Source: Thermogutta terrifontis (GTDB taxonomy: Bacteria > Planctomycetota > Planctomycetia > Pirellulales > Thermoguttaceae). From it: a stretch of DNA of 64,000 nt. The notes beneath the pieces are model-generated. The model was not told the origin of the DNA. It made no database searches and worked only from the letters and a program-made list of their open reading frames with translations. Both the position numbers and the translations under genes were made by a program. Below, piece after piece: positions 8,892-37,851 of the stretch. The stretch spans positions 2,501,206-2,565,205 of the forward strand of contig NZ_CP018477.1 of NCBI RefSeq assembly GCF_002277955.1, written 5' to 3'. The first letter of the stretch is position 1; each line of letters opens with the position of its first letter.

Positions 8892-9407
8892 TCACTGGGA
8901 ACTGAGCTTAATCTCGAGATTCTGAAGGCCTTCTGCCGGGACGGTGACCTCGATCCCGGACGTCTTGGGATTGGCGTACTTTTCGGGAAGCACGTTCCGT
9001 GTTGCACTAACACCCGTCGAAGGGGCGGAACCGCCGGAGGCGAGGGCCGCGTGTTCCACGTCCTCCGCGACCACAAATTGCTTCCCCGAGGTATCGGTAA
9101 CGAGTTTGGTAACCTGGACGAGATACTTGCCGGGAACTGCCCCGCTCACTGTTTCTGACGATTTCAGCGAGAAATGGCCCTTGGAGTCTGTCACGGCGTA
9201 CGCCCCGTAGGCAGGCGTTCCCGTCGGTACGAACACGACCGTGGCCCCATCGACCGGTTGACCGTCGAGAGTCACCGTTCCCGAGACCGGTGCTGTTTGC
9301 GGAATATTTCCCCGGCTACGCGAACCGCATCCCTGAGAAACGACCAAACCACAGACGAAACACAGCAAAACTGCCAGAATAAATCGCCGGCCCATTGATG
9401 CCCTCAT
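8892..9407 (-). CDS. Small lipoprotein with carboxypeptidase-regulatory-like beta domain
   Basis: The 171-residue protein starts with a lipoprotein signal whose hydrophobic core ends in VVSQGCGS, giving Cys27 as the lipidation site. The mature part is one beta-sandwich of the carboxypeptidase regulatory-like type: VSGTVTLDGQPVDGATVVF, then AVTDSKGHFSL. In Planctomycetes such lipoproteins typically sit directly after DUF1559 genes, as here. Their function is not established; a structural or anchoring role at the cell surface is a guess. It resembles the product at 10694-11107 in layout, which suggests duplication of the gene pair. Confidence 0.75.
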   Translation of the reverse strand: MRASMGRRFILAVLLCFVCGLVVSQGCGSRSRGNIPQTAPVSGTVTLDGQPVDGATVVFVPTGTPAYGAYAVTDSKGHFSLKSSETVSGAVPGKYLVQVTKLVTDTSGKQFVVAEDVEHAALASGGSAPSTGVSATRNVLPEKYANPKTSGIEVTVPAEGLQNLEIKLSSQ

Positions 9408-9496
9408 GTGATACCCACAGATCCTTGGAATGGAGTCAACAACCCCGCCGTCAAACGCAGCCGATGCGCACGCGGAAGGCTTAATCAGTCACTTAT

Positions 9497-10600
9497 TTAG
9501 AATCCCGTGATCGTTTCGCCTCCAGCCTTCGTTCCCAAAGCTCCCCATACACCAAAAGGACTGGGTCCAGAGGCAGTTGGCGATGGCGCCACGACACCCA
9601 AATTACCGGTGTCGATCGTATCGCTGATAAAGCGCACACTCCCATCGGCGAAGGCCACATTGACGCCGCCGGGATGTTCGCTCGTTGCGGTATAAATTCC
9701 CGGGGCAAAATGCCCTGAAATCCCACTCCAGCCGCCACCGGCAATCGCGCACACCGCTGTATTAGGGGGCAGAATAGTGGTTACACCAGCGAAATACGCG
9801 GCTCCGTCTGACCAGCGGTATCCCGGAGAGGTGTCGGACGTGAAGATCGGAGCACCAGAGATGTAGGCATTCCCTGCCCAATAGGCTCGGCAGGTCAGCG
9901 GGATATAGGCAGAGGGATCTCCACTCGTGTCGTAGATCACAGAGCCACGATCGTTGTCCCGGCGGGGACGAGAGCGTTCCGCCAAGGCAATGGTATTGCT
10001 GGTTCCGTCGGTTATGTTCGCCAGCGAATTATAGTCTTGCCGGCCGAAGCAGCCCCGATTGCGAATCGGCGTATTCATAAGAGCTGCGGCTTGATTGGCG
10101 TCCGAGCGTTCGGTGGGCGAGTGAACCGAAGCTTCATAATTATCGCCCGCGCAAAAGGCATAACTCGTCGTTCCGCGTTTGCTTCCCCTCGGTGGAATAT
10201 CTCCCGCGTCACTCGGACAATTGAGCGTCGGGATAATTGTTAGCTGCCAGTGGGAAACCGCGTTATCAGACCAGGGATTGTCATTCGCTTGCATGGCCGC
10301 GTCGTACACCGACTTCTGTTCGTAGAACGGTGCCAATTGGAGCCAGCCGCTGATTCGCAATCGCTGGTAACCAGTGGCGATATTACCCGTTCCAGATTGC
10401 CGCGCCGGCAGTCGCTGATAGGTGTCTACGTACGTGTGGGCAGCCAACATCAGCTGCTTGAGGTTGTTGCTGCACTGCGATCGGCGAGCTGCCTCCCGCG
10501 CCGCCTGAACGGCGGGCAACAGCAAAGCAATGAGAATTCCGATGATTGCGATGACAACAAGCAACTCGACCAGCGTAAAGGCTTTTCTCGTACTACGCAT
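9497..10600 (-). CDS. DUF1559 prepilin-like protein
   Basis: The 367-residue protein opens with a type IV prepilin-type N-terminus: a short basic leader, the cleavage/methylation site KAFTLVELLVVIAIIGILIA and then AVQAAREAARRSQC, followed by a DUF1559 domain. The C-terminus has the usual H-P-G-G-x-N and FADGSVRFI motifs (EHPGGVNVAFADGSVRF). This family is hugely expanded in Planctomycetes and is thought to form surface filaments or matrix; that role is inferred from the N-terminus rather than shown. GAGGAGGT precedes the ATG. It forms a pair with the lipoprotein just downstream. Confidence 0.92.
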   Translation of the reverse strand: MRSTRKAFTLVELLVVIAIIGILIALLLPAVQAAREAARRSQCSNNLKQLMLAAHTYVDTYQRLPARQSGTGNIATGYQRLRISGWLQLAPFYEQKSVYDAAMQANDNPWSDNAVSHWQLTIIPTLNCPSDAGDIPPRGSKRGTTSYAFCAGDNYEASVHSPTERSDANQAAALMNTPIRNRGCFGRQDYNSLANITDGTSNTIALAERSRPRRDNDRGSVIYDTSGDPSAYIPLTCRAYWAGNAYISGAPIFTSDTSPGYRWSDGAAYFAGVTTILPPNTAVCAIAGGGWSGISGHFAPGIYTATSEHPGGVNVAFADGSVRFISDTIDTGNLGVVAPSPTASGPSPFGVWGALGTKAGGETITGF

Positions 10601-21822: not shown

Positions 21823-24255
21823 TCACCGACGGGACTGCACAGGGATTTCCGACTGGAGGTGGGGTTCCAGGTGGACTTCTCTCGCGCCAGTGGTTGTTTC
21901 GGCTGCTTTCTTCCAAGGCCATCCAGGCAAGTATCGAGCCAATAGCACGATAATGCACGGGACAAGAATGGTTCGTATAACGAATGTATCGAGCAGTACC
22001 CCCAGTGCTAAGGCAAACCCCAGTTGGTGCATCGTACGCAGTGAACCACTGATCATGGCGATGAATGTCCCCGCCATGATGATCCCGCAACTGGTGATGA
22101 TTCCACCCGTCTTCCGCAGAGCCGATTTAAGACCTTCCGCAAACCCATATTTGGCCTGTTCTTCCAGCACGCGGGTGACAAGATAAATGTTGTAATCCTC
22201 GCCCACGGCCACGAGGATGACGAACAAAAAGGTGGGGAGCTTCCAATCCAGGCCATGGTAAGTAGCCCCACGAATCCACGAAAACACCAATTCAGTGATC
22301 CCCAGCGTCACATAATAGCCCCAGATGACCGACAGGACGAGAAAAACAGAGAGCACCGGTCGCCGCAGGATAAGAATGAGGACAAACAGCACAGCCAGGG
22401 GAACCAAACGCTGAATAAGCTGCTGATCGCTGAGGGTTACCGCTCGCAGATCGCGGATTCCAGGTGTCGTCCCGATGAAATAAAACCGCGCCCCGTTCCA
22501 GTCGGAATGAGAACTTGCCCATTGATTGAGATAATTTTCCAGGGCATCGAGCAAATAAATGCTTTCCACCGAGAACGGATCATAGGGAAAAATGACGTCC
22601 AGGCGTGTGACCTTGCCCCGATACGGCTCCTGCTGCGCGACGTACATCGCCCTGGCGCGAGCCCGGACCACACCACTCACCAACGCACTGCCACCGGCCC
22701 CCTCTCCCAGCGGATCTACCAGACTCCTCACACTCTGAATCGGCTTGAATCGCGTGCCATCGGACGCCGTGTATTCCATCGAATAAATCGCTTGCGTAAG
22801 TTCCCGTAGTAACCGAAAGCGATCGGGGCCCTCCAAAAAGTCGGCTTTGGGATGATAAGCCAGGATCGTGACTGGCCCCGTTTCCCCTGCCGGGAAATAC
22901 TCGCGAAGAAGCGCCGTTCCCTGCACACACCGGCGATCGGGACCTAGCTCGCTGAGCAGGTCATAGGTGAGGTCAATAGAGCGGGCATTCCAAACGAAAG
23001 GAGCCATCACGAGTAAGGACCCGACGAGGATGAGGCCCGGCCGACGCAACACGCGCTCTCCGAGAAAATTCCACAAGCCTTGAAATCTGGCCCCCACAAT
23101 GGACCGCCGCCCCAGCCGGATATCGTCGGATTCCTCTCCGGAATCCAGGTCCACGCGAAATGGCCAGAACACCTTTTTGCCCAGCACACAAAGAATGGCG
23201 GGGGCCAAAGTGAAGCACGCCGCCAGGGCCACAATAAGCGCCACAGCAATCGCTGGCCCTCCGTTTCGGAACTTTCCAAAGTCGGAAAAGATCATCATTC
23301 CAAGCCCCAGGATCGTCGTCCAGGCGCTGGCAAGAAGAGCCGCACTCACAGCGTCGAGGGCACTGGCCGCCGCATCAATGATACCAGCCCCTTTGGAAAG
23401 TTCCTCCTTGTACCGGGCGATCAGGAACAGGCAGTAATCCGTACCACTGCCAAAAAGGACCACCACCACAAAAATTTTGGTCGTTTTGAAGACCGCGAAC
23501 TCAAACCAGCCTGTTTTGAGACTGATTCCCGCCAAGATCGCGAGGACATCAAAGGCCGTAAATACCGCCACAGCCAGCGCGATGAGCGGCACTGCCGCGA
23601 GAAGCGGCGCCCGATAGACGACAAGCAAGATGATTATGATCAACCCTATGGTCGCCCATTCGGTGTTGCGGATACTCTCTTCAGCCGCGATGAGCATTTC
23701 CGTCCCCACAGCCCCCGAACCGGTAACACCGATTTCCAGACCTGCCGGCTTTTCGGGCGACTGCGCCAATTCGTCAAGTTTTCTGTAAATCTCTGCGAGG
23801 GGCTTCATATTCTCGATGGCCATGATTTCCCCCCGCATCTGGAGAATTACAAGGGCTGCCTGGCCGCGGTCCGTTACCGGGCTTTTCAATTTCTTGCCCA
23901 CAACTTGAGCGGTCGGCCCGGTCACGCTCACAATGGGTGTCTGCTCTCCCTCCTTCGGCTGGAAGGTTTCCACGATGCGTTCGGAAAAGGCGAGATCCGC
24001 GGCAGAAAGCGGGCCGTCCCGCCGTGCTAAAACGACGACGACCTCACTTTGAGATTCCGACTTTCCAAATGCTGCCGCGCGAAGTTTTTCACCCTGAACA
24101 CTTGCCGCCTGATCGGGAAGGTATGCAAAATCACCGTCGCGAGCTACTTCGTCCCATACTGGGGCGGCAAAGTGAAGGATAAGAAAAATCGCTCCCCAGC
24201 CGACAAAGATCAGTGGCCAATAGCGCGTGACGAACTGGCTGAAATAACGAAACAC
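21823..24255 (-). CDS. MMPL/RND-family membrane transporter
   Basis: The 810-residue protein has the two-repeat MMPL/RND plan: one N-terminal helix (RYWPLIFVGWGAIFLILHF), a large external domain, five helices, then the same again. Each half has a family motif in its fourth helix: GSGTDYCLFLIARYKEE and VGEDYNIYLVTRVLEE. Such proteins export lipids or other hydrophobic molecules using the proton gradient; the substrate is not predictable. I start at the GTG at 24255 because AGGAGAG lies 8 nt upstream, whereas the TTG at 24273 has no such site. It is transcribed toward nrdR. Confidence 0.85.
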   Translation of the reverse strand: MFRYFSQFVTRYWPLIFVGWGAIFLILHFAAPVWDEVARDGDFAYLPDQAASVQGEKLRAAAFGKSESQSEVVVVLARRDGPLSAADLAFSERIVETFQPKEGEQTPIVSVTGPTAQVVGKKLKSPVTDRGQAALVILQMRGEIMAIENMKPLAEIYRKLDELAQSPEKPAGLEIGVTGSGAVGTEMLIAAEESIRNTEWATIGLIIIILLVVYRAPLLAAVPLIALAVAVFTAFDVLAILAGISLKTGWFEFAVFKTTKIFVVVVLFGSGTDYCLFLIARYKEELSKGAGIIDAAASALDAVSAALLASAWTTILGLGMMIFSDFGKFRNGGPAIAVALIVALAACFTLAPAILCVLGKKVFWPFRVDLDSGEESDDIRLGRRSIVGARFQGLWNFLGERVLRRPGLILVGSLLVMAPFVWNARSIDLTYDLLSELGPDRRCVQGTALLREYFPAGETGPVTILAYHPKADFLEGPDRFRLLRELTQAIYSMEYTASDGTRFKPIQSVRSLVDPLGEGAGGSALVSGVVRARARAMYVAQQEPYRGKVTRLDVIFPYDPFSVESIYLLDALENYLNQWASSHSDWNGARFYFIGTTPGIRDLRAVTLSDQQLIQRLVPLAVLFVLILILRRPVLSVFLVLSVIWGYYVTLGITELVFSWIRGATYHGLDWKLPTFLFVILVAVGEDYNIYLVTRVLEEQAKYGFAEGLKSALRKTGGIITSCGIIMAGTFIAMISGSLRTMHQLGFALALGVLLDTFVIRTILVPCIIVLLARYLPGWPWKKAAETTTGAREVHLEPHLQSEIPVQSRR

Positions 24256-29091: not shown

Positions 29092-30573
29092 TTATTGCTG
29101 ATCGGATATCGCGGAAGCCTGCTTTTTTTGAAATTCGGCCCAACTGCCGTACCACGGTAGGGGTGTGAAGCGCCGGGCAAAAATGTGTCGCAAGGGTCCG
29201 ATCCCCCACACCTTTCGCTGGAGTTCTTCCTGGGTTGCGAAGAACTGCTCGGCCGCCGCCACACGTTTCGGGTTCCACTCTTTTTCCCGCATCACCTCGT
29301 GGTGATACTTTAGGAGTTCGCACTTGTACCGCCACTGCACGACTCGCCAGTTTCTTTCCCAGTCCGCCGGAAGCAATTGTTCGAGAGTTTTTTCCGCCGC
29401 CGCGACATCCACTTCAAAAGGACGTCCCCAAAGCTTCAGCCAGGCGACCCATTCAGCGGCGTTGTCGTCACTGGCGCCGAGATAACGCACGGCATAGGCA
29501 CGTAACGCTTCATCCGTCGAGGAGTACCGACCGCTTGCCAAACCCGCAAGAATCGCCTTGTTGACATCGTCAAAGACGCCTTCTGAGTAGGCCATCACGC
29601 CCTGACAGCCGTGGCCAGCCAGATCACGGACCGTTTTTTCCAAACGTGCTGGGGCAATCACCGAGCCGAGGTGGCCGTACACATCCCGGGGAGCTGCCTG
29701 GTCGGCGTATCCGATGTGAACGAAGGCTGAGCGTGCACATCCCTGGGGAAGTGGTACGGAAGCCACATCGGTCTGTCCATAAGGGATGTGAAGGTACATT
29801 TGTCCCACCCAACCGGGGGCGTGCTCCTCGCACCACGTCGCGAATAATTGATGTTCCTCCGGCTGCCACCACCAGCCAATCATTTCCATCCTCAGCTCCG
29901 GGTGGTACTTTCGCCCTATCTCGTAAATTTCTCGAGATAGCTTCGCAAACGTGAGAATCCACGGACGACACTTCTCGCAGGCACATCCACCGAAATCGTA
30001 GGGAGCTGCAACGAGCGTAGAAAGACGTACACCGCTCGCCGCCAGGTCTGCAAAGAGGTTTTCGTAGTTGCGAAGAATGACGCGCCTTGCCTCTGGAATG
30101 GAAGGGCAAATGAGTTGCCCGAAAATTTTTGCGTTCGTCGTGGCCAGCCAATCAGCACGACACTGGTCCACATAGACGTGATTCGGGGTGATAACCAGGC
30201 CGCATGCCAATCCCAGTTTTTGGGCGGCCAGGAAATGTGCCTTTTTTCGTTCCCATAAAGCATGCCCCAGTTGGTACTCTCGTTTCGCTGAAAATGGATC
30301 GGAACAGTCCTCCATATCAAACCAGTCGGCATAGCGATTGAACCCCCAGAAAAGTGCCTCCTGGAGCATTTCTCGCATCTCGTTTTCGCCCATCACCTCA
30401 TAACTATTGCCAAAATGCCCTGGGGCATAGAGCGTGCGCACAGCGAAAACAGGCGTCACCTCTTTGCCGTCCCCTGGTCGCGCCTTGTCGTCAGCCCGGG
30501 CACAGGCCATCACGACACCAACGAATGCCACGAAAAACGTGAGAGCTCGGACAATCGTTCTCTGGTGAATCAT
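29092..30573 (-). CDS. Secreted TIM-barrel-like protein with a CxCxxC motif
   Basis: The 493-residue protein has a signal peptide (MIHQRTIVRALTFFVAFVGV, cleavage near ARA-DD). The body alternates helices and short strands as in a glycosidase barrel (EALFWGFNRYADWFDMEDC, GLACGLVITPNHVYVDQC). Cys197, Cys199 and Cys202 form a CxCxxC cluster (DFGGCACEKC) directly after a predicted strand. The same pattern occurs in the product at 38020-39627 and in many DUF4838-type secreted proteins. A role in polysaccharide breakdown is inferred from the fold and export only. GGAG lies just upstream of the ATG. Confidence 0.6.
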   Translation of the reverse strand: MIHQRTIVRALTFFVAFVGVVMACARADDKARPGDGKEVTPVFAVRTLYAPGHFGNSYEVMGENEMREMLQEALFWGFNRYADWFDMEDCSDPFSAKREYQLGHALWERKKAHFLAAQKLGLACGLVITPNHVYVDQCRADWLATTNAKIFGQLICPSIPEARRVILRNYENLFADLAASGVRLSTLVAAPYDFGGCACEKCRPWILTFAKLSREIYEIGRKYHPELRMEMIGWWWQPEEHQLFATWCEEHAPGWVGQMYLHIPYGQTDVASVPLPQGCARSAFVHIGYADQAAPRDVYGHLGSVIAPARLEKTVRDLAGHGCQGVMAYSEGVFDDVNKAILAGLASGRYSSTDEALRAYAVRYLGASDDNAAEWVAWLKLWGRPFEVDVAAAEKTLEQLLPADWERNWRVVQWRYKCELLKYHHEVMREKEWNPKRVAAAEQFFATQEELQRKVWGIGPLRHIFARRFTPLPWYGSWAEFQKKQASAISDQQ

Positions 30574-30640
30574 GGTTCCACTCCATAAACGTCAACCTGG
30601 TAAGCTTGTAGATTTGCACCCGGCCTTTGAAGAAAACGCC

Positions 30641-30829
30641 CTATTGCACCGCGGTCAAACCTGAGTCGGAGAACTCTGTCGATTCAACTTCCGTTCTTCC
30701 CGCAAACGATAGCCGGATTTCTCGTACCGGTCCAAATCCAGTCCGAACGGCGAGCGTCGCGGCGCCGCTCTCCACCGGCGTTTGCTGCTGGTAGACAGTC
30801 ATCCCAACGACTGCTTGATAGCTCCGCTC
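30641..30829 (-). pseudogene. Possible coding remnant
   Basis: The minus strand has an open frame of about 59 codons ending in TAG at 30641-30643, closed upstream by a TGA. It reads as strand-like protein (MTVYQQQTPVESGAATLAV, then GPVREIRLSFAGRTEVES). No start codon with a ribosome binding site is seen at its beginning. It may be the tail of a decayed gene; it could also be chance. Confidence 0.25.
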
Positions 30830-30845
30830 AATTCATGATTTTCGT

Positions 30846-31112
30846 TTAGCAGATGGAACTTTCCAACAATTCTTCCAACGTTTCTTCGTGCGATGATCCC
30901 CCAGATGGTATTGTTTGATGGTCTTTCCTATCGACGGTTAGTCTCTTGTTACTAAAAGCTCCGGCACCGAACGTACCATCCGGAAGCTCAGCGTCAATTT
31001 TGGTAACTCCCCGACAGGAAGCAATCAAGCGGGCAAAAAGGAAATGTGCGACCTGTTCTCTCGGTTGGGCGCGAAGCATCCAGCACGGTTGTATGGATTC
31101 TTCCGAGGGCAT
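30846..31112 (-). CDS. Hypothetical small protein or gene remnant
   Basis: An 88-codon frame begins at an ATG (MPSEESIQPCWML) and ends in an acidic helix (HEETLEELLESSIC). Its composition is protein-like, but there is no ribosome binding site and no family I recognise. It lies in the 686-nt gap before the helicase-nuclease gene and may belong with the possible remnant at 30641. Nothing else is seen in that gap except a TATAGT at 31183-31188, which might be a -10 box for the helicase gene. Confidence 0.3.
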   Translation of the reverse strand: MPSEESIQPCWMLRAQPREQVAHFLFARLIASCRGVTKIDAELPDGTFGAGAFSNKRLTVDRKDHQTIPSGGSSHEETLEELLESSIC

Positions 31113-31259
31113 CGCGGAGTGATCAATCCCATGACATTGATGAGTTCGTTTTTGCAGTTTGGTGATTCGGCCGTATTTGATTTATAGTGTATTTAGTCCG
31201 GCTATCTTTGCGAGCCACAAAAGTGGCCGACCTTATCGAACCAAAAAACCTTCTAAAAA

Positions 31260-34200
31260 GTGGACAGGCCAATGACGATGCCCGCTCTTTTCGAAAAAAC
31301 ATTGGCGCTTCTCAAGTTCTTACGAGATTATTCTGGACTGCGACGACGCAGTGGCACCACATACACAAAGGATGATCGTGTCCTGTGGTGGGGAGATCTG
31401 GCTGCGGAACTGAGGCGTGGTGCCCAGGGGATTTATTCCCCTTTGCTCAATGACAATGACAGGGGCGATACAGATCCTGAGCTCTGGCTGGAGATGCAAA
31501 AACCGAAGGAACCGGCAATGCCGGAGCCCTCAGAACAACTGAGGTTCTGGATCGCGGACTATCCGTATTCCCTGCGTCATCCGTCAGGGAACGAGCCCGA
31601 ACTCCGTTCAGAAATTCCTTCCCCAGCAAACACCCTGGGGCCCTTGTTCAGCAGTGCTGCGAAACAAGAAGAAGACGACTCAATAGCCTACGAGCGACTG
31701 GAGGATCACCCGGAGATTCAGAAGGCATTCGCCAATTATCTCGAGAAATGGCGGCCCTGGTACGCCAACTACCGTCTGTGGCAGGGAAGTCAGCGGCTGT
31801 ATTCGCAACTCGATTTAATGCGTCGTCTTTCCAGCAGTACCGACGAGACGTCCGAACTGGTTATGGCCTTCGGTTTGCTGGAAGGAGTGATCGACGGCCA
31901 GTTTTACTGCCGCCACATCTTCGTTGCACCGGCGGACATCGTCCTCGAGCCCATCAGGGGAAAGCTTCTGGTAAGGCCTTCCTGGGACTTCACCCAGTTC
32001 AAGCTCGATCTCACGTTTCTCCCTTCTCACCTTCGGCCGGACTTTACCGAGGCTTCCCTGCAGGAAAAACTGGAAGAACTCGACTGCGATCTTACCCAGC
32101 AGAAGCTCATCGAAGAGCTGTTGAATCTGGTAGGTAATCACCTTTCTCCGGAAATCCTGATTGATGTGACGGCGATGTCGCCGCGGGCCGAAAGACAGAA
32201 CTCCTTAAGTCTTCGTTTTGCCCCGGCGCTTGCCCTCCGGCGTCGTGTTTTCACAGGTTACGAAGAGACGGTCCTTCAGTTTATCAAGGGATTTGAAGAA
32301 GGCCGTCTGCGCGAAACGCGCCCATGGCAGACGCTGCTTCTAGAGGGAAAACCCGCGGCCCGCGAGGAAGCCGACCTCATTTCTGGACCTGAAAGCAATC
32401 GCAAAACTTCTAAGAGATCTCGCTCCCCCATCCCGGACACAGAACTCTATTTTCCCTTAGCATCCAATGACCAGCAGCGTCGGATTGCGCAACGGCTTTC
32501 CGAACAGCCGTGCGTGTTGGTCAAAGGTCCGCCCGGAACAGGAAAAAGCCAAACGATCGCCAATCTCATTTGCCATCTCCTGGCCCAGGGCCATCGCCTG
32601 TTGATCACGGCCCAGTCGGCGAAGGCGTTGACTGTTCTTCGCGACATGTTGCCGGAGGATATCAGGGATCTCTGCGTGATTGCGTTGGGGAACTCGCGCG
32701 GCGAGCTCAAACTGATGGAAGACTCAGTCCAACGGATTGTCCGCCGGGCCGAACAGTGGGACGAACTGTTTCAGAACGCCGAAATTGCAAGGCTTTCTGA
32801 GAAGCTTCGGGAGTGCCGTGATCAAATAGCGCGGCTGGAAAAAGAACTCTGCGACGTTCGCGAAGCAGAAACTCGGGTGGACCGTACGCTGCCTGGCGGA
32901 TACACCGGGACGGCCGCTCATATCGCTCAAAAGGTTAACAAACGTGCTTCCAAATACCGATGGCTGCCGAAGGAAGGCCCGAAGGACCATTTTCCGCTCT
33001 CTGAGGACGAACTGGAATTCTTTGCGAATTGGCATGTCCAGTTGACTCCCGATCGAAAGCAAAGCCTGGCCTGGGCCAAAACCGACATAGACCTTCCCAG
33101 CCCGGAAGAGATTGAAGCGTTGTTTGAAGAACGGGCTGCCCTCCAGACCCAGCTTCAGCAACTCGCAGCGGTCGTTGATGGCACTATTTCCAACCGCCTC
33201 AAGCAGCTCCCAGATGAGACCGTCGAACAGCTTTCGCGGTGCCTGACTCAATTGAATCGTACGATTCGAGAAGCCTCGGCAGTTCTGGGGGAGTCCCTTC
33301 CGTTTGTGATCCACGAATTTGTTGAGGGGAAACAGCCGAGCTGGCTGCCACTGATCCGAAATTGGGCAGAGGCCGTCAAACGGCTGTCGGAACACAGCGC
33401 ATTTTTGCAGACCGTCAGCGTTACCTATCCGGAAGATATGGAGTTAAAGGGGCTTCTTTCAGCCGCCAGGCGGAGAGCGGAGCATTTTCGACGGGGTGGT
33501 AAACGACGGTGGCTGCTATTCTTCTCACCGCGCGTCGTCAAAGAAACAGAGTTCGTCGAACAGCTCTGTCGGGTGAATGGTGGCCCGCCGGCAAATCTCA
33601 GTGAGCTTGATGACCTGATCAGGTATCTAGAACTAAAAGAGCTGGTGCTCTCTGCCTTTGCCATGTGGCCGGGCAAAGTTGACTTTCCTGCCAGTGATGT
33701 CCTGGCGGCGGCGGTGCAACTCCGGCAATGGCAAGCCCAACTTGTGGCCCTGTTTCGCGCGTTCGAGACCGGGCGTTCCGTCCTCTCCATGCTCCCGGTT
33801 CAGGACTGGCGAACACTGTTTTCGGATAATTCCCTGCCGATATGGGAGCAATCCATCGCGAGAGAATGGGCATGGCGACGCTTGGCACGCACTCAGCGTC
33901 AGATTGAGGAACTCGCCTCGCGATTGCGAGCCCAGTACCAGGAGTCCGGCGATCCCGCGATAGCCAAGTGTTGTCACGCACTCGAGAACATTGAGGCTGA
34001 ACTCTGGCGGTCGGGCTGCGCCGAGTACTCCTCGCGAAAGTCGCTGCTTTCTTCTCACGAGCGATACCTTGCCCTGCGCGAGCGTATCGAGAATGCATAC
34101 CCGGCACTGAAGAACTGGCTAAGTGAGACAGAGGGCCAGGCTTCCGCCCGCCCGTTGATCGGCCAGCTTGCGGAGGCGTGGCACTGGTCGGAGGCTCGCG

Positions 34201-36503
34201 CATGGCTTCGCCGGGTGACCCAGCCCGGCCGCTATCAAGAGCTGAAACTCTCTTTAGAGGAACTCCGAAAACAGGAGCGGGATATCATCAAGCAACTCGC
34301 GAGTCTTAAGGCATGGCAAGCTTTTATGCTGCGGCTCGACGATCGCACGCGGCAGAATCTTCAGGCCTGGGTCAAGACGATTCAGCGAATTGGGAAGGGA
34401 ACCGGCAAACGCGCGCCGCGGCTGCGGCGGGAGGCACGCCGCTATTTGTTTGAGTGTCTTCCGAAAATTCCCGTCTGGATTATGCCGGTCCACAGAGTCT
34501 GGGAAACAACCAGCGTTGAACCAGGGATCTTTGACACGATTATCGTGGACGAGGCGTCTCAAGCCGGTCTCGATTCGCTGCTCCTTCTCATGCTGGGCAA
34601 ACGACTCATTGTGGTGGGTGATGACCAGCAGAATAGTCCAGGGAAGCAATTCATCGAACAGGAACGGATCAACGGTCTCATCGATCGATATCTCAAGGGC
34701 GTACTTGATTTCGCAGAGAGCTACCAGCCCGACTTCAGTCTTTACGATCATGCTCTGCGGGCCTTCGGTCTGCCCATCACTCTGCGCGAGCATTTTCGAT
34801 GTGTTCCCCAGATCATTCGTTTCAGCAACGATCTCTGCTACCAAGAGGAGCCGCTCATTCCTCTTCGCCAGGCCCCGCCGCAGGCACTTCCACCGCTACA
34901 GGCCGTTTTTGTTTGTACCGGCCGAACAGAAGGCGAAAGCCCGAACATTATCAACCGCGCCGAAGCCGAGGCCATTGTTGAGAAAATTCAGCAGTGTCTG
35001 AAGGATCCCGCGTACAAAGGTAAGACAATGGGCGTGATCACACTCCAGGGACAGGCCCAGATGGAACTGATCCAGCGACTGCTGAGCGAGCGTATTGAGC
35101 CGCGGGAACTGGAAGAACGGAAACTCACATGCGGCACCTCTCCCAGTTTCCAGGGAGATCAGCGGGATGTCATTTTCCTTTCTCTCGTCGTGGCACCGAA
35201 CCAGCGTTTTCGCGCTTTGACAACAGACGACGAAAAACGGCGATTTAACGTGGCGATGAGTCGCGCCCGTGATCAGGTCTGGCTGTTCCACAGCGTTCGG
35301 CTGGAAGATCTTTCTCCGGAGGATCTTCGCTACAAGCTCTGCCAGTTCTTTTACTCGCCCGAGCAGGCACTGTCAGACGGTGTCTACGCGCAGCGCGAGA
35401 CCCTGGAAACGTTTTTCAAACATGTTCGTAATCGGAAAACGAATCCACCGCCAACGCCATTTGAAAGCTGGTTCGAGACGGAGGTGGCCCTTGAGCTTCT
35501 CCGCCTGGGATACCGAATCCGACCTCAATGGGCCGTTGCCGGATACCGGATCGACCTCGTTGTGGAAGGTCAACAGAAACGCCTGGGAATTGAATGCGAC
35601 GGTGACTCCTGGCATGGTCGGGAACAGTTTCTGCAAGATTTGCATCGCCAGTTACAATTGGAGCGCGTAGGGTGGACCATCATCAGGGTGCGGCAATCAG
35701 AGTTTTACGCCAACCGCAAACGTTGTCTGGAATACATCCTGGACAAATGCCGGGAACTGAACATTCGCCCCTGGACCGAGAACGAGGCGGAAACGGCGCA
35801 GGAGAACGAATCGTGTCATGATCACGCTCATCCGCGCGATGGTGATGGAGAAGCGAGATCTGAAACTCGAAACCGTGTCTACGAACCACCTGAGGCACGA
35901 CAATCGACGCCAGGAAATGGCGGAGCACAAAAATGGCGGCCGAAAAACGGTGGCTACTCCGTGGACCGAGTGGGGCCAGTTCCAGGAGCATCAACTCGAT
36001 CGCCAAAGCCATCCGGTCACGCGACGTCGCTTTTGGCCGGCCGAGTTGAGCCTTCTGTACAGACGGTAGCGACGCCCCGGGAAGCTCCAGAAATAGAAAA
36101 TATCGACGGAGAGGACCCACCCACGATTCGCTACCACTTGGACGTCCAGCAACCCCCAGAAGGTTCGGGTTCGTTTGCAGTCCATGAGTTCATTGACAGC
36201 CTGATGGCCGCTCCAAAAGCAGCCCTGGCCAGTGTCATCGACAAATACTTTCCTGATGACGACAAAATATGGAAGAAACTCGCGGCCTGGGCGAAGGATA
36301 AAGGATTATTTACTCCCACGGCGCGCCAGTTTCTATACAAAGTGGGAGAGTCCTGCTCTCCTTTGGGAGGCTGGGAACTTACCGCAAAGCAGAAGGCCTG
36401 GGCATGCAGCCTTTTTGCAGAGGCGGTGAAAGAGGGTTTTCTTTATGAAGCAGGGATTGATTGGCTGATCGCGAAGATAGGCAGAGCGGATGGGCCACAG
36501 TAA
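31260..36503 (+). CDS. Superfamily 1 helicase fused to a Vsr/DUF559-like nuclease; candidate defence protein
   Basis: The 1747-residue protein has these parts. An N-terminal domain of about 400 residues. Walker A GPPGTGKS at 423-430 followed by SQTIANLICHLL. A long helical, partly coiled-coil insert at about 490-1085. Walker B VDEAS with Asp1097-Glu1098. GDDQQNSP at 1120. Helicase motifs LREHFRC, FQGDQRDV (about 1300) and NVAMSRARDQVWLF (about 1330). A PD-(D/E)XK nuclease domain with Asp1432 (YRIDLVVEG) and Glu1445-x-Asp1447 (GIECDGDSWHG). A charged linker, then a C-terminal helical domain at about 1620-1740. Similar helicase-Vsr-like fusions act in phage defence in other bacteria; I infer the same role. 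The GTG at 31260 has weak support; ATGs at 31272 and 31278 are alternatives. Confidence 0.85.
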   Translation: MDRPMTMPALFEKTLALLKFLRDYSGLRRRSGTTYTKDDRVLWWGDLAAELRRGAQGIYSPLLNDNDRGDTDPELWLEMQKPKEPAMPEPSEQLRFWIADYPYSLRHPSGNEPELRSEIPSPANTLGPLFSSAAKQEEDDSIAYERLEDHPEIQKAFANYLEKWRPWYANYRLWQGSQRLYSQLDLMRRLSSSTDETSELVMAFGLLEGVIDGQFYCRHIFVAPADIVLEPIRGKLLVRPSWDFTQFKLDLTFLPSHLRPDFTEASLQEKLEELDCDLTQQKLIEELLNLVGNHLSPEILIDVTAMSPRAERQNSLSLRFAPALALRRRVFTGYEETVLQFIKGFEEGRLRETRPWQTLLLEGKPAAREEADLISGPESNRKTSKRSRSPIPDTELYFPLASNDQQRRIAQRLSEQPCVLVKGPPGTGKSQTIANLICHLLAQGHRLLITAQSAKALTVLRDMLPEDIRDLCVIALGNSRGELKLMEDSVQRIVRRAEQWDELFQNAEIARLSEKLRECRDQIARLEKELCDVREAETRVDRTLPGGYTGTAAHIAQKVNKRASKYRWLPKEGPKDHFPLSEDELEFFANWHVQLTPDRKQSLAWAKTDIDLPSPEEIEALFEERAALQTQLQQLAAVVDGTISNRLKQLPDETVEQLSRCLTQLNRTIREASAVLGESLPFVIHEFVEGKQPSWLPLIRNWAEAVKRLSEHSAFLQTVSVTYPEDMELKGLLSAARRRAEHFRRGGKRRWLLFFSPRVVKETEFVEQLCRVNGGPPANLSELDDLIRYLELKELVLSAFAMWPGKVDFPASDVLAAAVQLRQWQAQLVALFRAFETGRSVLSMLPVQDWRTLFSDNSLPIWEQSIAREWAWRRLARTQRQIEELASRLRAQYQESGDPAIAKCCHALENIEAELWRSGCAEYSSRKSLLSSHERYLALRERIENAYPALKNWLSETEGQASARPLIGQLAEAWHWSEARAWLRRVTQPGRYQELKLSLEELRKQERDIIKQLASLKAWQAFMLRLDDRTRQNLQAWVKTIQRIGKGTGKRAPRLRREARRYLFECLPKIPVWIMPVHRVWETTSVEPGIFDTIIVDEASQAGLDSLLLLMLGKRLIVVGDDQQNSPGKQFIEQERINGLIDRYLKGVLDFAESYQPDFSLYDHALRAFGLPITLREHFRCVPQIIRFSNDLCYQEEPLIPLRQAPPQALPPLQAVFVCTGRTEGESPNIINRAEAEAIVEKIQQCLKDPAYKGKTMGVITLQGQAQMELIQRLLSERIEPRELEERKLTCGTSPSFQGDQRDVIFLSLVVAPNQRFRALTTDDEKRRFNVAMSRARDQVWLFHSVRLEDLSPEDLRYKLCQFFYSPEQALSDGVYAQRETLETFFKHVRNRKTNPPPTPFESWFETEVALELLRLGYRIRPQWAVAGYRIDLVVEGQQKRLGIECDGDSWHGREQFLQDLHRQLQLERVGWTIIRVRQSEFYANRKRCLEYILDKCRELNIRPWTENEAETAQENESCHDHAHPRDGDGEARSETRNRVYEPPEARQSTPGNGGAQKWRPKNGGYSVDRVGPVPGASTRSPKPSGHATSLLAGRVEPSVQTVATPREAPEIENIDGEDPPTIRYHLDVQQPPEGSGSFAVHEFIDSLMAAPKAALASVIDKYFPDDDKIWKKLAAWAKDKGLFTPTARQFLYKVGESCSPLGGWELTAKQKAWACSLFAEAVKEGFLYEAGIDWLIAKIGRADGPQ

Positions 36504-36777
36504 AAGGCAGAGTTTATTGGCAGGGAATGGTTGCTCATCTACTTCCGCTTCGTTTGCGCCTCCGTGACAATGGCATATTCGCCATAATTGCCAGAGCGCC
36601 ATCTTGAAGCGAGCTACTGGATGGATTTTGTCTCGTTTTGACACCTGTCACGTATGTCCGCATGCCAACGTCGGACCGTCGATACCCCTCTCTGTGGGCC
36701 TCATGGTTTCGATATTAACATTGGAAGGTGGTATGGAAATGGTTTGCGAACACGTCTAACAAATCCCCAATGTTTCA

Positions 36778-37851
36778 ATGGAAACTTCAATTCCCTGGGA
36801 ACACGGAAGTGAATTTGGGTGGATTCTGCCGCTGGATTATCCCTATCCGAAACGGGCACTTCCGGCGAATGCGGTGCTGTTTGGAAACGGTCGGCAGGCC
36901 CTGGCGGCTGCCCTCCTCGCAGGAAAAAAACAGAGAGGGTGGCACCGCTGTTACGTGCCCAGTTATATCTGCCAGAGCGTCGTGGACGCGGTTCTTGCCA
37001 CCGGTCTGGAATGTATCCCCTACCCCGATCTGCCAATAGGCCAGCCTGAGTTGAATTACAGGAACCTTCAGCCTTCCGACTGTGTGTTGATTGTGAATCA
37101 CTTCGGTTGGCGCTCGCCGCAGTTTTCTCAGTTAGTTCGCACGACACCGGCCGGGCTTATCGAAGATCACACACACGACCCGTGGAGCGCCTGGGCCAGC
37201 AATTCATCGGCCGATTTTTGCATTGTGTCGCTGCGCAAAACATTGCCGCTTCCCGACGGTGGGGCAATATGGTCGCCTCGCGGGCATCCGATCGAGCCAC
37301 CATCAATCGAAGAGCCCGACCACCAGCGGGCAGCCCTTCAGAAGTTGGCGGGAATGCTCCTGAAGGCCGAATATCTCAGGGGAGGCAGCGTAGAGAAAAG
37401 CCTGTTCCGGAGTCTTCAAACCTCGGGAGAGAATCTCTTCAAAACGCTGCCGCTTTCCAAACCGCTGGAAATCACCTCTCATCTCTTGGATCGATTGCCG
37501 TGGGATCAATGGCGGAGTAAAAGGAGAGTAAATGTCGAGTATTTGGCCGGACTATTACGGACAATAAAGCAAGTCGAGGTTCTCAATCCACCACGCATGG
37601 CCGAAAGCTGCTCATTCGGCGTGGTCATTCGATGTCCGACCAACTCGGTTCGGGACCAATTGCGGCAATACCTCATTGAGCGGCAGATTTATCCAGCCGT
37701 CCTCTGGCCCAAAAACTGCCACATGATGAACGATTGCCAAGCGGTCGAATTCTCGGAACGCATTCTTTTCTTTCATGCAGACTTCCGGTATGAAGTGACG
37801 GATTTAGAGCGAGTTGTACAAGCAGTACGTAATTTCTTCGGGAGTTGGTAA
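36778..37851 (+). CDS. DegT/DnrJ/EryC1-like PLP-dependent protein
   Basis: The 357-residue product has the fold markers of DegT-type sugar aminotransferases: GNGRQALAAALLAG near the start, the cofactor Asp130 in GLIEDHTHDP and the candidate PLP lysine Lys154 in VSLRKTLPLPDGG. The typical sequences around these residues are loosened and the overall length is a little short, so substrate and even activity are uncertain. Such proteins normally transaminate nucleotide-linked keto-sugars. There are no sugar-nucleotide genes nearby. The ATG has no visible ribosome binding site, and an upstream ATG at 36733 is closed by an in-frame stop. It follows the helicase-nuclease gene by 274 nt, a gap in which I see no gene. 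Confidence 0.7.
   Translation: METSIPWEHGSEFGWILPLDYPYPKRALPANAVLFGNGRQALAAALLAGKKQRGWHRCYVPSYICQSVVDAVLATGLECIPYPDLPIGQPELNYRNLQPSDCVLIVNHFGWRSPQFSQLVRTTPAGLIEDHTHDPWSAWASNSSADFCIVSLRKTLPLPDGGAIWSPRGHPIEPPSIEEPDHQRAALQKLAGMLLKAEYLRGGSVEKSLFRSLQTSGENLFKTLPLSKPLEITSHLLDRLPWDQWRSKRRVNVEYLAGLLRTIKQVEVLNPPRMAESCSFGVVIRCPTNSVRDQLRQYLIERQIYPAVLWPKNCHMMNDCQAVEFSERILFFHADFRYEVTDLERVVQAVRNFFGSW

Follow-up and report, generated by a model that had tools for sequence, protein, structure and literature searches.

A large gene lies on the forward strand of the analysed stretch (the window), which covers 64,000 nucleotides of the genome of Thermogutta terrifontis, a single contig of 4.81 Mb. The features of the gene are collected in Table 1. 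Its reading frame opens with GTG, although the ATG at position 31272, which gives a protein of 1743 amino acids, is the likelier start: the congener (G001) keeps this ATG, and a purine-rich stretch directly precedes it. Judged from its sequence, the protein combines an intact superfamily 1 (UPF1-like) helicase with an intact Vsr-like PD-(D/E)XK nuclease, and the nearest solved helicases are NAM7/UPF1 and SEN1. The Walker A motif at residue 423, the DEAS motif at 1097, the superfamily 1 helicase motifs, Asp1432 and the ExD motif at 1445–1447 that an earlier note on this DNA had claimed are all present in the intact frame. Furthermore, K429, D1097, E1098, Q1124, R1180, R1335 and D1432 are identical in 24/24 aligned family proteins, while E1445 is retained in 22 and D1447 in 21 of the 24. 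A Pfam match to DUF559 (residues 1416–1497) overlaps the nuclease, and the N-terminal region has a central β module at residues ∼198–240.

Table 1. Features of the helicase–nuclease gene and of the DNA directly upstream, in window positions.
Feature	Position	Strand	Basis
Conserved 194 nt upstream, 71% to congener G001	31066..31259	+	Sole matching part; 19 other genomes searched
Complete gene, 1747 aa from GTG	31260..36503	+	Open reading frame without internal stop
Family-specific N-terminal region, residues 1-402, alpha/beta, without Pfam name	31260..32465	+	Alignment of 18 sequences including that of the window
Helicase lobe 1 (AAA_11), residues 403-565	32466..32954	+	Pfam
Walker A GPPGTGKS, residues 423-430	32526-32549	+	Sequence
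Long insert separating lobe-1 motifs from Walker B, residues ~570-1040	32967..34379	+	Alignment
Walker B DEAS, residues 1097-1100	34548..34559	+	Sequence, alignment
Helicase lobe 2 (AAA_12), UPF1/SEN1-like, residues 1160-1342	34737..35285	+	Pfam
PD-(D/E)XK/Vsr-like nuclease (MTES_1575), residues 1405-1495	35472..35744	+	Pfam, E 2.3e-28
Nuclease residue D1432	35553-35555	+	Sequence
Nuclease residues E1445/D1447 (E-C-D, 1445-1447)	35592-35600	+	Sequence
Variable C-terminal tail, fastest-evolving part, residues 1500-1747	35757..36500	+	dN/dS 0.39

The AlphaFold2 model of the C-terminal part has a mean pLDDT of 52.7, with a good nuclease part (pLDDT ∼70–90) and a poor tail. The nuclease is modelled as a helix, three strands, a helix and a strand, and Foldseek paired this model with Bax1, the catalytic domain of I-Bth0305I (TM-score by target 0.78, r.m.s.d. 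3.1) and, at lower ranks, Hjc resolvases and Vsr, none of these pairings reaching E < 0.001. The nuclease fold on which the earlier note depended is indicated by the significant Pfam match together with a model that resembles Vsr-like endonucleases. The N-terminal region, modelled with AlphaFold2 from seven alignment rows (mean pLDDT 70), gave no confident fold match: the best Foldseek E was 0.3, and VIA-align returned no Z of 5 or above, the best being 4.8 over 51 residues (DOCK9). An hhalign comparison of this region with DUF4011 proteins gave 49% probability and E 1.7e-4 over 68 columns, covering the β module only, which is suggestive of a distant module shared with the equivalent in DUF4011 proteins and not of membership.

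The gene is preceded by a real gap of 686 nt (30574–31259), which the earlier note had read as possible gene debris. Stops interrupt all six frames of this gap and, in the 19 other genomes searched, similarity was limited to its last 194 nt in a single congener; because no more than these 194 nt are conserved and every frame is stopped, the debris reading is unsupported, and the conserved piece is a probable upstream or regulatory region. A promoter scan of positions 30500–36900 found no sigma-70-like site, and no Rfam match was found at 24000–46000. There is no tRNA within the window that could mark an insertion, no repeat pair bracketed the gene at the settings used, and the G+C content of the gene region is that of its surroundings, with no insertion mark. 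The 357-residue 3′ neighbour adjoins the gene in the congener too. The 5′ neighbour is not common to the congener, where DNA similarity ends 194 nt upstream of the gene; the congener has the 493-residue upstream gene of the window on a different contig. The named neighbours in the window (an MMPL transporter, a sugar ABC transporter, GH116 and PriA) are metabolic or housekeeping genes, the others being unnamed, and PADLOC matched 0/7 of the neighbouring open reading frames tested. Taken together, the ordinary neighbours, the lack of PADLOC matches among these seven and the difference on the 5′ side point to a variable spot among ordinary genes rather than a defence island, and a defence character of the site itself, as the earlier note had suggested, is not supported. 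Two side observations belong to this genome. The 3′ neighbour (36778–37851) has only a marginal match to DegT/DnrJ aminotransferases (20.6 bits); its identity is 79% to the copy of the congener (partial) and 44% to those of two others. Outside the window, at G000:C1:2425001–2425213, a second large open frame (1837 aa) matches residues 391–461 at 32%.

Among the three Thermogutta congeners, the family is present in one (G001, where the gene is split over two contigs), and no match to the protein was found in the drafts of the other two (G002 and G003, 87% and 97% complete). The genes of the window genome (G000) and G001 are 83–88% identical, a neighbouring gene being similar at 85%, and they look vertically inherited. 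Measured against the G001 orthologue, dN/dS is 0.16 for residues 1–721 and 0.14 for 698–1747; by part it is 0.17 (1–400), 0.12 (698–1040), 0.05 (1040–1500, that is helicase lobe 2 and the nuclease) and 0.39 (1500–1747). These low values indicate a selected protein and not a chance reading frame. Tail lengths range from 8 to 362 residues across the 24 family proteins, and a blastp comparison of the 19 tails of at least 40 residues listed six similar pairs at E 0.01. A resemblance seen by eye between the window tail and that of G096 is absent from these pairs. When the last 117 residues of the window tail were searched against 59 other genomes, only the congener matched; plasmids (E 0.01) and the PDB (E 1) gave nothing. 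Among the relatives viewed, DUF3320 (wHTH) is annotated only in those from Sphingobium.

The protein was compared with the known systems of similar build. The best PADLOC model, both for the window protein (196 bits) and in 5/5 relatives scanned (172–230 bits), is PDC-S37, a single-gene phage-defence candidate with which it has the helicase and nuclease in common. However, the best stretch for the window protein, 938–1363 of 1550, falls short of a full-length match, and the best stretches start at profile position 288 or later and at residue 346 or later, skipping most of the N-terminal region. Hhe (NF042953, a DUF4011 protein active against phages) and ProA (NF058533), which are the best NCBIfam models, likewise place a superfamily 1 helicase and a terminal nuclease region on one giant chain. 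The scores are far below the equivalog cut-offs: 158.2 against 2000 bits for Hhe (126–166 bits in five relatives) and 218.5 against 1500 bits for ProA. DUF4011 (PF13195) was absent from the window protein at E 0.001 and from 6/6 relatives at E 0.01, whereas it was present in 5/5 lower-scoring planctomycete helicase–nucleases used for comparison. In a maximum-likelihood tree built from 29 rows and the 1327 columns kept between Walker A and the C-terminus, the 24 family rows are set apart from the 5 DUF4011 rows across a 100/100 branch, with long branches flagged. Within the family, rows from Streptomyces, Tsukamurella, Fusobacteria and viruses are interspersed with planctomycete rows, as horizontal transfer would give; some inner forks are weak. 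The tree omits split, partial or stop-flagged rows (G193, G324, the first copy of G344, G186, G487, G509, G357, G147 and G005), G001 (divided between two contigs), G647 (frame ambiguous), L024 (seemingly a duplicate of the G449 record), the viral L089, L090, L094, L095 and L097–L099, and further plasmid copies.

Mokosh is a system with an Upf1-like superfamily 1 helicase and a kinase or PLD partner domain. MkoA and MkoC share this helicase core with the window protein (87–134 bits), but their best stretches (1087–1389) end before the nuclease, which in the window is of the MTES_1575 kind; no kinase or PLD family was matched at E 0.001, partners being sought among the seven window neighbours, and Mokosh was set aside as a match of the helicase region only. 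The earlier note had placed the protein among DUF4011-, Hhe- or Mokosh-like fusions. The single-gene helicase–nuclease kind stands; membership of DUF4011/Hhe is rejected on the lack of DUF4011, the 158 of 2000 bits and the separate clade, and that of Mokosh falls since only the helicase core is shared. Hachiman HamAB, in the part of PMC12278908 available, offers a sensor helicase with an effector nuclease as a working model, but it consists of two proteins, and PADLOC found no HamA or HamB match in the window protein at E 0.001.

The closest precedent is a set of giant proteins (Anantharaman et al., 2013; PMC3710099) in which an SF-I helicase and Vsr (MTES_1575) are accompanied by HEPN, transglutaminase-like and wHTH domains. 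In that text, these proteins, which come without modification genes, are predicted to recognize invading DNA, probably via a C-terminal wHTH. They share with the window protein the fusion of an SF-I helicase to the same Vsr-type REase and the lack of modification genes, and the family fits the same logic; they differ from it in that Pfam lists no HEPN or transglutaminase family for the window protein, which has another N-terminus and a variable tail. The N-terminal region (∼300–500 residues, of which ∼390 are conserved) aligns across the whole family, and on sequence comparison the window protein is a member of a separate family without a name, marked by this conserved region and a highly variable tail. 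A description of the family was not met in the literature searched, a search made by words and not by sequences, with most subscription papers outside it.

The family is patchily distributed. A profile of six proteins at E 1e-100 found it in 12/392 genomes of the phylum and 9/397 of the class, the window genome being included in both counts; 37/99 genomes matched at E 0.001, mostly through the helicase or helicase–nuclease part alone, and these were not counted as family. The pattern is that of an accessory gene, and the gene is not conserved in all relatives at a fixed housekeeping locus, two of the three congeners (drafts) giving no match. Several copies are broken: the one in G186 carries an interruption, of the two in G344 one is split and the other intact, and that in G487 is split. 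In G186 (L075, ∼8914–10302) the interruption is an insert of ∼1.35 kb with a 367-residue open reading frame on the opposite strand. Insertion sequences also lie within the matched stretch in Deinococcus and Rhizorhabdus plasmids. In G193 and G509 the frames are open over 1564 and 1516 residues, and the stops flagged in them are apparently located where the gene ends.

Plasmids carry further members. A tblastn search with the Variovorax N-terminal region gave 29 plasmid records from Acinetobacter, Variovorax, Sphingobium, Microvirga and Rhizorhabdus, and the N-terminal regions of the plasmid relatives from Streptomyces, Tsukamurella and Fusobacteria align to the family as well. Klebsiella plasmids made up 238/379 records in one plasmid search and were absent both from these 29 records and from the 44 that the full Acinetobacter protein retrieved at E 1e-50. 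Their proteins are probably another subfamily; the N-terminal query also missed the Streptomyces, Tsukamurella and Fusobacteria members.

Viral sequences carry the family too. GenBank phage records contained only three partial matches (10–24% of the query). A single scan of IMG/VR gave nine loci, five of which (L091–L094 and L096) span the window protein from residue ∼12–75 to 1502–1520; the viral scan queried with the protein of L005 gave nothing, and that with query A3 gave two distant relatives among the matches listed. L093 and L094 have an identical open reading frame layout, and the predicted viral contigs L091 and L092 are relatives of each other, almost the whole of L091 matching L092 at ∼75% DNA identity. 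The L091 copy is flanked on one side by an HTH_17 gene and a D12 adenine methyltransferase-domain gene and on the other by a Phage Mu F-like head gene. On the predicted viral contig L093 (5846–6805), a DUF4007 gene (E 1.5e-79) lies upstream of the family member; DUF4007 is known from DNA-phosphorothioation loci. Between the copies of G042 (from the family to which the window genome belongs), G204 (from another family of the phylum) and L091, DNA identity is 73–77% and confined to the gene, where it reaches from the beginning to roughly the point at which the nuclease domain ends; blastn gave no similarity in the flanking stretches compared. Identity limited to the gene is the pattern expected of a single-gene cargo, and its end near that of the nuclease makes the tail the part that is not shared. 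Transfer of the family thus seems to involve this one gene alone.

The surroundings of the relatives were viewed in 18 plasmid regions, which are not independent, given near-identical copies in Acinetobacter and closely similar ones in the sphingomonads. A named R-M, BREX or AbiE gene occurs in 11/18 regions (five from Acinetobacter, four from sphingomonads, one from Fusobacteria and one from Variovorax SRS16). In 5/5 Acinetobacter plasmids viewed, the family gene follows the BREX-1 gene brxL by 63 nt in the same direction; the remaining 13 regions have no BREX annotation. In this set (L084:8696–13426 of Acinetobacter baumannii p3ABAYE, L102, L111, L112 and L113) the gene stands as if it were a further BREX-1 operon gene, and a gene behind brxL is not described in the available parts of two BREX papers (PMC12839542 and PMC10117892). 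In 4/4 Sphingobium and Rhizorhabdus plasmids viewed, it immediately follows a restriction endonuclease gene (BPTD_3080 family or type III R), and type I R-M genes are close to it in the Fusobacteria plasmid. Variovorax VAI-C has DUF4194 and S. chartreusis has TIGR02678–02680 nearby, which by their names look like Wadjet. No recognized defence gene was present in four annotated regions (two Streptomyces, Tsukamurella and Deinococcus), and the Microvirga record is unannotated. Counted by lineage, 6/9 annotated lineages have a defence gene, Wadjet included. As a small control, other stretches of six of the same plasmids gave a restriction gene in 1/6, an orphan DNA methyltransferase in 1/6 and neither in 4/6; the one restriction gene, on the 50-kb Fusobacteria plasmid, is probably the same R-M locus as that beside the family gene.

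Among planctomycetes, 20 neighbours chosen from the 162 open reading frames called were scanned singly at E 1e-20 or 1e-10. HsdR was found in G164, HsdS with a weaker LmuB match in G487 and an RtcR-like regulator in G357, while the other 16/20 gave nothing at these thresholds, so that only G164 and G487 yielded defence genes among the loci scanned in this way. PADLOC applied to 94/162 of the called frames matched 138 families at E 1e-10, the leading ones among the 25 listed being mad2 (three members) and PDC-S05, type I methyltransferase, type I specificity and RtcR (two each). The viral contig L096 has HsdR and an AAA_5 ATPase with its family member. The expectation that defence genes would lie near relatives is supported by BREX in 5/5 Acinetobacter and an endonuclease in 4/4 sphingomonad plasmids, with mobile carriers in addition. 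A small gene lies directly upstream of the helicase–nuclease at L091:7615–7974, L083:9636–9836, L087:8676–8873 and L086:8733–8960, encoding an HTH_17 protein in L091, a PC4/YdbC ssDNA-binding protein in Fusobacteria and proteins of 65–66 residues in two Variovorax records; no such gene was seen in the window.

The presence of relatives on phages, plasmids and chromosomes, often beside anti-phage systems, suggests that the gene is probably a self-contained phage defence. It is likely to encode a single-protein anti-phage (anti-mobile-DNA) nuclease of the unnamed family, and at the family level a role in defence is well supported by these comparisons. Two features of the single-gene helicase–nuclease defence class are found, namely intact active sites on one chain and relatives that are accessory, mobile and near defence genes; the literature searched contained no phage assay of any family member.

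The constant place behind brxL in Acinetobacter and behind the R-M endonuclease in sphingomonads would also be expected of an accessory subunit that cannot function without a partner such as BREX or R-M, the planctomycete copies then being strays or dependent on distant genes. This is rather unlikely, since the gene alone is common to the viral contig and the chromosomes, and since the window copy has no defence partner found near it and yet is under strong purifying selection. A chromosomal DNA-repair or recombination helicase–nuclease of the host, with no part in defence, would suit the housekeeping-like surroundings in the window (PriA, the ABC transporter and GH116) and the vertical inheritance between the two Thermogutta genomes. 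It is improbable for a gene that has no match in two of three congeners (drafts) and, at E 1e-100, in 380/392 genomes of the phylum, whose relatives are carried by plasmids and viral contigs and preceded by BREX or R-M genes elsewhere, and of which broken copies are tolerated. An RNA-level surveillance enzyme, in which a UPF1-like helicase acts on RNA and the nuclease cuts phage transcripts or RNA–DNA hybrids, is likewise improbable in spite of NAM7/UPF1 and SEN1 being the best solved helicase relatives, given the Vsr-like DNA-endonuclease kind of the nuclease, the unwinding of DNA by human UPF1 as well (in the available part of PMC5499549) and the DNA-targeting systems that adjoin the relatives.

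As a self-contained defence protein, it may act in the following manner. The N-terminal region and the variable tail would gate the protein or bring it to invading nucleic acid, the recruiting targets possibly being replication intermediates, ends or single-stranded DNA. By moving along exposed foreign DNA at the expense of ATP, the helicase would open the substrate and position the C-terminal Vsr-like nuclease, which would then cut the foreign DNA. No modification gene was found beside the window copy, and there is none that is a constant partner among the relatives viewed, so that self and foreign DNA are probably told apart by the state or structure of the DNA and not by a methyl mark of the system itself.

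A wider reading, which we hold only tentatively, is that of a widespread stand-alone defence family in which a conserved engine (its own N-terminal region, the UPF1-like helicase and the Vsr-like nuclease) may be combined with an exchangeable, fast-evolving tail as the trigger or specificity module, and which may travel as a mobile single gene and have been recruited at least twice behind modification-based systems. The recruited member would act as a nuclease arm, following BREX-1 in Acinetobacter and an R-M operon in sphingomonads. An early account described BREX as lacking a nuclease (PMC9122589), but a later one reported metal-dependent nuclease activity for PglZ (PMC11974810), both as given in the available parts of these papers; a family member in BREX would then supply a second cleavage activity.

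If this is true, no full-length model in PADLOC (2023) or NCBIfam (June 2026) would represent this mobile defence family, which covers at least Planctomycetota, Pseudomonadota, Actinomycetota and Fusobacteriota, together with predicted viruses. The Thermogutta protein would provide a thermophilic source of a single-chain helicase–nuclease for structural and biochemical work. The family would also allow a direct test of whether the BREX-1 loci of Acinetobacter plasmids hold a second, nuclease-based layer.
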